Shown: piece after piece, positions 18,001-21,000 of the stretch
How the letters are laid out: each line of letters begins with the position of its first letter
Position numbering within the stretch: position 1 is the stretch's first letter
Assembly: GCF_040436345.1 (NCBI RefSeq)
Contig: NC_133218.1
Coordinates: 26,214,710-26,278,709 of the forward strand
Reading direction: 5' to 3'
DNA length: 64,000 nt
Source of the DNA: Pagrus major
Taxonomy: Eukaryota; Chordata; Actinopteri; Spariformes; Sparidae
The notes under the pieces: generated by a model
Told to the model about the DNA's origin: nothing
What the model saw: only the letters and a program-made list of their open reading frames with translations
Database searches by the model: none
Position numbers and translations under genes: made by a program

Positions 18001-21000
18001 TAATGTTTGATCAGTATTTAGTTACAGAACTTGTTACATCCCTCATGTTTCTAAGCAAAGAAAGTGTGAGTTTAGCCTACATGAATAATGCATTACATTA
18101 AGGTCAGCTGTCATTTTAAGAGTAGACGTCCAAATATAAGCTCCAGAATATGCCAGTTTTTTGAAAGGCTGTCTTCATGATGAGTTTAATTGACGTTATG
18201 ACTCTGCTCGCTTGAAAACAGTTCTTTTATAAGAGCTAATGCCACTGTCCGTGTAACTTCATGGCATTACATTTTTGTCACAAGATTTGTCTTTTTATAT
18301 ATTGCATCTAACTTCCCACTTTGATGCTCAGGATTTGATGCACAGCTCAAGAAATAGCTTTCTGTAGCTGACATCCCTGACCTCTTCTTGTATGCAGCTG
18401 TAGTTTGAATTTAAGAATTTAAACATGGACTTTTTTAGGCATGTGGTTCAAAGTCTGAGTCCACACACTTGAAAAGGTTAGATCTATTATCTTGTAACAC
18501 TGGCCTCTGTTTTAGTAATATTATCATGTGATGACGATACTTCTGCAGCAACAGAACATTTCAATCTTATTTTTTTCAGTGCTTATCATTCTTTTGTTTA
18601 AAAAGATATGTTTGTTTTCATTTTTCTACAGGCCCACCGGATATTAAAGGCAGGGCGTCCATCTTTAAGGTGCATTTAAGACCTCTGAAGTTGGACTCCA
18701 GTATAGAAGTAGAGGCTTTAGCCAGAAAGCTGGCTGCACTAACCCCAGGTTTTACTGGTAAGAATGAATGAAATGTACTTATGATATAAACGGATCACAC
18801 AGTTTTGTATTCTCTATCTGTTTCTTTGTCATACCACAGTCTTAATCAGGTTATCTGTGTGTCTCAGGGGCTGATATCGCTAATGTGTGTAATGAAGCAG
18901 CTCTGATAGCTGCACGTCACCTCAACCAATATATCAGCACTAAGCACTTTGAGCAGGCAGTCGAGAGAGTTATTGGAGGTAAGTTAACAACCACGTGCAT
19001 GCACTTGATATTATAATAATACTCAGAACTAATGGATATGGTTTTTACACCGTCATCAAGCAATATTATTAAAGGGAATACACATTTTTCTTCTTACCTG
19101 TCGTGCTATTTATCCATCTTGATTATTTGTGTGTTTTGGAGATATCGGCCGTACAAAAATATGTATTTCTGATTTTGAATGGTCCCTTTAAAGTGGTTAG
19201 ATTTGCTTTAAATTTCTGTAACATGAAGTTTTGATCAAGTATATTCTATTAATGTACATTATATCCTAATATATCTCATTGAGACTTCCATGTAGGGAGG
19301 AGACCCAATCCTCTCAACTGTGTATACTGTATGCTTAAAGGCTGATAACTTGTTCCTTACACAAAAACACACAGAGTGCTTAAGATCATCCTCTTTGCTT
19401 TCAGGTCTGGAGAAAAAGACTCAGGTATTGCAGCTTCCAGAGAAGACTACTGTGGCGTATCATGAGGCCGGACATGCTGTGGTTGGCTGGTTCCTAGAAC
19501 ATGCAGACCCCCTACTTAAGGTAGTCACACACTACCCTCACACACCTTTTATGTGTTTTCCCCTTCCACAGTCACATTAAGATTTATTTAAATGATTATA
19601 TTGATAAATGGATTGATTTTAATGATCTCCCTCAGGTGTCGATTGTTCCCAGAGGAAAAGGTTTGGGTTATGCACAGTATCTGCCTAAGGAACAGTACCT
19701 GTTCACCCAGGAGCAGCTGTTTGACAGAATGTGCATGATGCTTGGAGGTAACAATTAGAAGTCACCTACAGGGTTCGCTCAAAGTCTTGAAAGTTTGGAA
19801 AGTGCTTGATTATTAACGGTTTTCAAGGTTAAGAATATGCTTGAATTTGCATTTAAGTATAATATTTTCAATGTAATCTGGTGTTTCATCTACACAATCA
19901 CTAATGAACCATAAACCTTTCAGTATTTGAAATTAAATGATTGTTATGACATTGTCATATTTGTTTGTTGTCTCCTGGGTTTTGAAATCTGTAAGAATTA
20001 AATACTCAAAATATTAATATGAAACAAAGTGACAATATACTTTGATGGCTGTTGGTATAAAGGAATTCTGTAAACTTTTGAATTTTTTGCAGTTGCATTT
20101 ATAGTAACATTTTGGAAGTGATAGTCAAAGCTTACAGAGCCTGGAAAGTTGTTCAGTACTTTGAAGAAGCATACGAAGCGTTTGGTTTGAAGTGAAGCAC
20201 CACTGTGTAATTTGACTCACAGTTCTCGATTTTCTTCATATTTTAGGTTGTACAGTTTGGAATGAACGAGGCGGTGGGTCAGATGTCCTTTGACCTCCCT
20301 CAGCAGGGTGCCATAGTAACTGAGAAACCCTTCAGTGAATCCACTGCCCAGCTTATAGACCAGGAGGTGCGCCTGCTAATAGATGGGGCCTTCCAGCGAA
20401 CACTTCTGCTTGTCAACGAAAAGAAAGAAATGGTGGAGAAGGTGAGAAGCAATGGATTATAATATTTGTATTGATGCTGTCATTAATGTATAATCACCTG
20501 AAACTAAGAATCGTTGTGTTTTTGTTACCTGAGAATGAGTCTTTCATATCTACAGAGGGAGCACGTCCTCTTTGAAGGAGTCTGCCATGTTTCTACAGTA
20601 GCCCAGAATGGACAAACGAAACTCTGGCTCTAGAGAGGGCCATTTGCGAGTGGTGTTCAGTTGCTTGCAATCTGCTACTTTAGCTCTAGACACCTTGAAA
20701 TCCTACGCATTTTTAGAAACTTGTTGGAAGGCGTATGAGGGAGATGGCTAACCTAAGCTACCTTAAGCATAATAGCTAATAGTGATATTAGAAATCATTA
20801 TTTAAAAATAAATGAACGCTACTATTACATCCAACTATTGTTAAAACTGTCGCTCCACAGCCTGTTTTGTGTTTTGAGTGTTGAATCTCTGTGATCAGTA
20901 ATACCACTTGCATAATTATTGAAGAAAGAGTTATTATCATCATTAAAAGGCTTGTTGTTCACTGTTTTTGGTCACGTGTCGCAGGTGGCTAAACGTCTGC

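Follow-up and report, generated by a model that had tools for sequence, protein, structure and literature searches.

The afg3l1 gene of Pagrus major examined here is broken in the middle of a protease exon, and we consider it probable that a small recent deletion, running from within the exon into the next intron, has disabled a redundant copy, one of two genes of the afg3l1 type. We infer both the deletion itself and its reach into the intron, and the truncation is known from a single assembly. The window, by which we mean the whole stretch of 64,000 nucleotides that was analysed, is C4:26214710-26278709 in an assembly of 785.9 Mb and 25 contigs. The gene, for a subunit of the m-AAA protease of AFG3L1/AFG3L2 type, lies at 12088-21212 on the + strand, and the features that matter are as follows (window coordinates).

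12088-21212, + strand: coding span of afg3l1, exons E1-E15, E17 and E18, with the stop codon at 21212, from an exon table with splice sites and paralogue matches exon by exon
12088-12312, + strand: E1, homology weak or absent
14391-14481, + strand: E2, homology weak or absent
19405-19520, + strand: E14, intact, with the zinc-binding motif HEAGH at 19461-19475
19636-19749, + strand: remnant exon (E15), 38 of the 67 codons of a 201-bp exon
19750-19768, + strand: 19 bp separating the broken exon from the MITE, with no likeness to the exon by exon comparison and the element boundary, and presumably a leftover of the original intron
19769-20213, + strand: hAT-like MITE, old and degenerate, right end approximate
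20214-20246, + strand: end of the intron with its acceptor ...TTTTAG, left limit approximate
20247-20441, + strand: E17, intact
20985-21212, + strand: last exon E18, intact, with the stop codon

Homology is likewise weak or absent for E3. The AAA domain is present, with a 14-residue motif stretch and RPGRFDR in the alignment, which we take to be Walker A/B and the arginine fingers, and the HEXXH zinc motif characteristic of M41 peptidases is there as HEAGH in E14. In the AAA exon at 16567-16704 a 14-residue stretch differs from the SEFLEMFVGVGPAR of human AFG3L2 and both paralogues, an unusual change that adjoins the pore loop. In a six-row tree built without any known AFG3L1 sequence the window gene falls outside the AFG3L2 clade, as expected of AFG3L1 and not of AFG3L2. 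With regard to the neighbours, Dysbindin (dbndd1) and Forkhead (foxf1) genes were identified by Pfam, the fragment that we presume to be def8 has no Pfam match, and the presumed mthfsd fragment has only a sub-threshold RRM match. The human order at 16q24.3, which we take to be def8 - afg3l1 - dbndd1 - foxf1, would be a neighbourhood of the same type. An intron of the gene also holds, at 15389-15954, a dispersed repeat with 17 matches including itself; among the 8 of these that were listed there is 71-76% identity at window 25877-26480 and 70-87% in loci L014 and L017 on C8.

Comparison with human AFG3L2 (6nyy) gives a match up to chain position 362 that resumes at 393, and positions 363-392, 30 residues or 89 nt, are absent between the exons at 19636-19747 and 20247-20441, just where the initial annotation had placed a gap. 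Between ...MCMMLGG and VVQFGMNE the gene is without 29 codons, among them the TTGAQDD segment, whose Asp is the third zinc ligand. The same is seen with the M41 profile (20 matches listed for the assembly), whose positions 74-101 have no counterpart in the window gene but do have one in each of the other three m-AAA loci. The absence of the third ligand that was first described is thus real, but no whole exon has gone, and the proposal that a separate 89-bp exon was lost does not hold: both in AFG3L2 of Pagrus major (C21:30.56 Mb) and in a further m-AAA gene on C8 the segment forms the 3' portion of one uninterrupted exon of 201 bp. In both paralogues this exon reads VSIIPRGKGL...LGGRV(S/A)E(E/Q)IFFGRITTGAQDDL(R/K)KVTQSAYAQ, free of introns. 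The window exon follows them for 38 codons, the last of which is the second Gly codon, GGT at 19747-19749. From this codon it reads GGT AAC AAT TAG with the TAG at 19756. The apparent GT donor at 19747/19748 belongs to that conserved Gly codon. By this comparison the true splice donor is gone together with the 29 codons, and the break falls within the exon. All other modelled exons are open with GT-AG sites, and the earlier statement to this effect needs correction only for the 'donor' at the break. The protein length of 796 aa once suggested is also to be revised, as the model with E1 and E2 as drawn comes to 831 aa after adding the 89 nt, E1 and E2 themselves being uncertain. An exon plan read from one sequence alone can make a mid-exon break look like a missing exon.

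The segment was looked for elsewhere. A tblastn search of both strands of the 64-kb window gave matches at chance level only (best 16.9 bits, E 1.9), in agreement with the initial annotation, which found it neither in the 499-bp interval between the exons nor in the next intron. As for a replacement exon of the right phase, among the 6 open AG..GT cassettes (20-47 bp) in the interval there is none like the segment. That the exon might lie elsewhere had also been raised, and the search of the assembly with the segment (786 Mb, 25 contigs, 3 candidates scored) gave 3 matches, which are AFG3L2, the C8 gene and SPG7. The match to SPG7 was reported at 60% identity over 25 aa, and an orphan segment of 85% identity should therefore have been seen.

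Most of the interval (about 19769-20213) is an old MITE, which we take to be of hAT type. Fragments of a dispersed repeat had been suspected here, and it was the whole-genome search that revealed the element; neither the window alone nor 232 kb of sequence, when compared with the interval, gave a convincing repeat. There are at least 45 genome matches to the interval including itself, a lower bound as 40 of 270 candidates were scored. From nine other copies, aligned to build a consensus, the element runs from CAGGGTTTGTACAAAG, with some variation, to CTGTACAAACCCTG. At their start the copies have CAGGGTTTGTACA or a variant, at their end several have TGTACAAACCCTG, and the element thus has both terminal inverted repeats and dispersal; such inverted ends are typical of hAT MITEs. 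The window copy opens with CAGGGTTCGCTC at 19769 and loses its likeness to the others around 20213; only 19 bp separate its intact left end from the point where the exon breaks off. It has 14.3% mismatches to the consensus over 19780-20168, within the range of the nine others (12.6%-19.5%), and has therefore probably long been in place. Inspection by eye showed no 8-bp target duplication beside this copy, which is old and has a degenerate and uncertain right end. We reject an insertion of the MITE straight into the exon, as the 19 bp that precede the element do not look like exon sequence.

We suggest that the deletion would have started in the 201-bp exon, run into the next intron and ended within about 20 bp of the MITE, which would already have been resident there. 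It would have taken the authentic splice donor and the 29 codons, the third zinc ligand among them. A transcript reading through the remnant exon would then meet the TAG at 19756. Splicing at the GT that happens to lie in the Gly codon would lead to the stop at 20291, which does result when the two exons are joined directly, as noted from the start; this stop lies 150 nt before the end of E17, a distance at which transcript decay is generally expected, and nonsense-mediated decay would be the likely fate. Skipping of the remnant exon would be in frame, with loss of 67 residues of the peptidase domain. Judged from the sequence, no transcript outcome should yield an active protease, and skipping of the remnant exon is the only one that could give rise to a protein close to full length, one lacking the peptidase site.

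The window copy has changed faster than the C8 gene. Over the thirteen exons (608 codons) open in the window, C8 and C21 genes there are 66 private residues in the window gene and 30 in the C8 gene (p=0.0003), and with human AFG3L2 added the figures are 36 and 15 in 482 columns. Sites otherwise identical down to bacterial FtsH are changed 9 times in the window gene, 4 times in the C8 gene and 0 times in the C21 gene. For the window and C8 genes the NG86 method gives a dN of 0.152 and a saturated dS of 2.57; for the window and C21 genes dS is undefined. The age of the lesion itself was approached by estimating how soon a neutral gene would show damage, using 764 open codons, with E2 left out, and 4 splice-site bases for each exon, 64 in all and slightly too many, and assuming 0.05-0.15 indels per substitution. 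On this basis 2.5-4.3 disabling events are expected per 1% of neutral change, and a neutral gene of 764 codons has a 5% probability of remaining clean of stops, splice-site loss and frameshifts at about 0.7-1.2% divergence. The intact state of the remaining exons thus implies less than about 0.7-1.2% of neutral change since the loss (5% level), and points to a recent event.

The initial annotation offered a very recent loss or an assembly deletion, and this remains the right pair of options. Under the second, our main rival and one that we think unlikely, the living gene keeps the whole 201-bp exon and the consensus sequence has lost at least 87 bp of it. Such an error would give a sequence identical to that of a real deletion, and a gene that is clean in every other modelled exon, with a single lesion, has the look of an artefact. 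However the window contains no N, and the only nearby dispersed repeat that was found is the MITE, whose scored matches elsewhere (40 of 270 candidates) are 67-85% identical, with one exception among them, a 39-bp piece at 90%. Divergence of this order would probably keep an assembler from mistaking one copy for another, and the cut itself is not within the MITE. Nor is the segment found elsewhere in the 25 contigs beyond the other m-AAA genes. The truncation may also be a segregating allele.

It is very unlikely that the gene is still productive, making by a skip from E14 to E17 an m-AAA ATPase of almost full length whose peptidase site does not work. The skip would be exactly in frame, leaving 764 open codons in the model, and the dN and dS values given above for the pair with C8 speak of strong long-term constraint. 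However the 67 residues that would be removed, between the HEXXH helix and the remainder of the peptidase domain, would probably leave that domain unfolded, and the constraint measured mostly predates the lesion. We give even less credit to a truncated afg3l1 kept as a peptidase-dead, ATPase-only partner of AFG3L2, SPG7 and the C8 AFG3L1 by way of this predicted skip. An ancestral intron at LGG^R with a separate 89-bp exon, later lost, would fit the donor-like GGAG|GTAACA in the right phase, but is hardly to be credited, as it requires both an intron gain and an exon loss, the two nearest paralogues have no intron there and the GT is part of a conserved Gly codon; the SPG7 intron in this region sits near TTG^AQDD and not at LGG^R.

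For the preferred reading, a recent deletion in one of two redundant genes, the C8 gene is important. It is a fourth m-AAA gene (2.177 Mb), of afg3l1 type, with E5-E18 open on the same plan as in the window gene and with HEAGH and TTGAQDD kept; its first exons (E1-E3) were not found in the exon-by-exon matching. In the six-row tree human AFG3L2 and the C21 gene group with support of 100/99 and the window and C8 genes both fall outside, and the fork joining these two lacks resolution. The row most identical to the window gene in the tree listing is human AFG3L2 (79% over 483 columns). Over the 608 codons identity is 485/608 for C8 and C21, 462/608 for C8 and the window gene and 449/608 for the window gene and C21; the closeness of C8 to C21 could arise if the window copy is fast, and is not evidence for pairing the C4 and C8 genes.

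There are matches to the Transthyretin/HIUase family (urah-type) upstream of both genes and on the same strand, at C4:26165466-26165861, some 61 kb ahead of the window gene, and at C8:2192346-2193616, some 5 kb ahead of the first mapped C8 exon; a fifth match to this family is on C11. The C4 urah-type matches hold internal stops, 1 TAG in one and 3 TGA in the other, which from the sequence may be due to introns or to decay of that duplicate too. The 8 Dysbindin-family matches are on C3, C4, C6, C7 and C19 and none is on C8, where one short exon-like match to dbndd1 (E 8e-5) was discounted as a counterpart. The C4 and C8 genes are likely to lie in a duplicated block, one that is only partly shown, and are probably whole-genome-duplication partners. 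Two further M41 genes, at C19:22.87 Mb (L012) and C21:11.76 Mb (L013), resemble YME1L, a name that we assume from this resemblance, and Pagrus major may thus have a duplicated i-AAA protease as well.

As the protease exons of the C8 gene are intact, this is decay of one duplicate and not a species without AFG3L1. From E5 on the window gene shares its exon plan with the C21 AFG3L2, and its AAA and HEAGH motifs are intact as in that gene and in human AFG3L2 (6nyy); it differs from both in being without the 29 codons that include TTGAQDD. Most losses of teleost duplicates occurred earlier. The case resembles loss of a partner after the teleost whole-genome duplication in having copies on two chromosomes, a urah-type match upstream of each and a faster window copy, and is unlike most such losses in that the lesion looks very late. 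The account in PMC2880309 has human AFG3L1 becoming a pseudogene, and the likeness is that an AFG3L1 locus no longer encodes a working m-AAA subunit. However the parallel first drawn with that pseudogene is weak, as the fish keeps the second gene on C8 and the window gene shows a single visible lesion. Among the papers listed on afg3l1, judged by titles and the openings of abstracts, none reports its duplication or loss in fish.

It looks like an ordinary case of duplicate-gene decay with a neat lesion, in a species that still has a second gene of the afg3l1 type. If real, it would be a snapshot of a very recent loss from a long-standing pair of duplicates that encode a protease of mitochondrial quality control, and would help in asking when AFG3L1 becomes dispensable.
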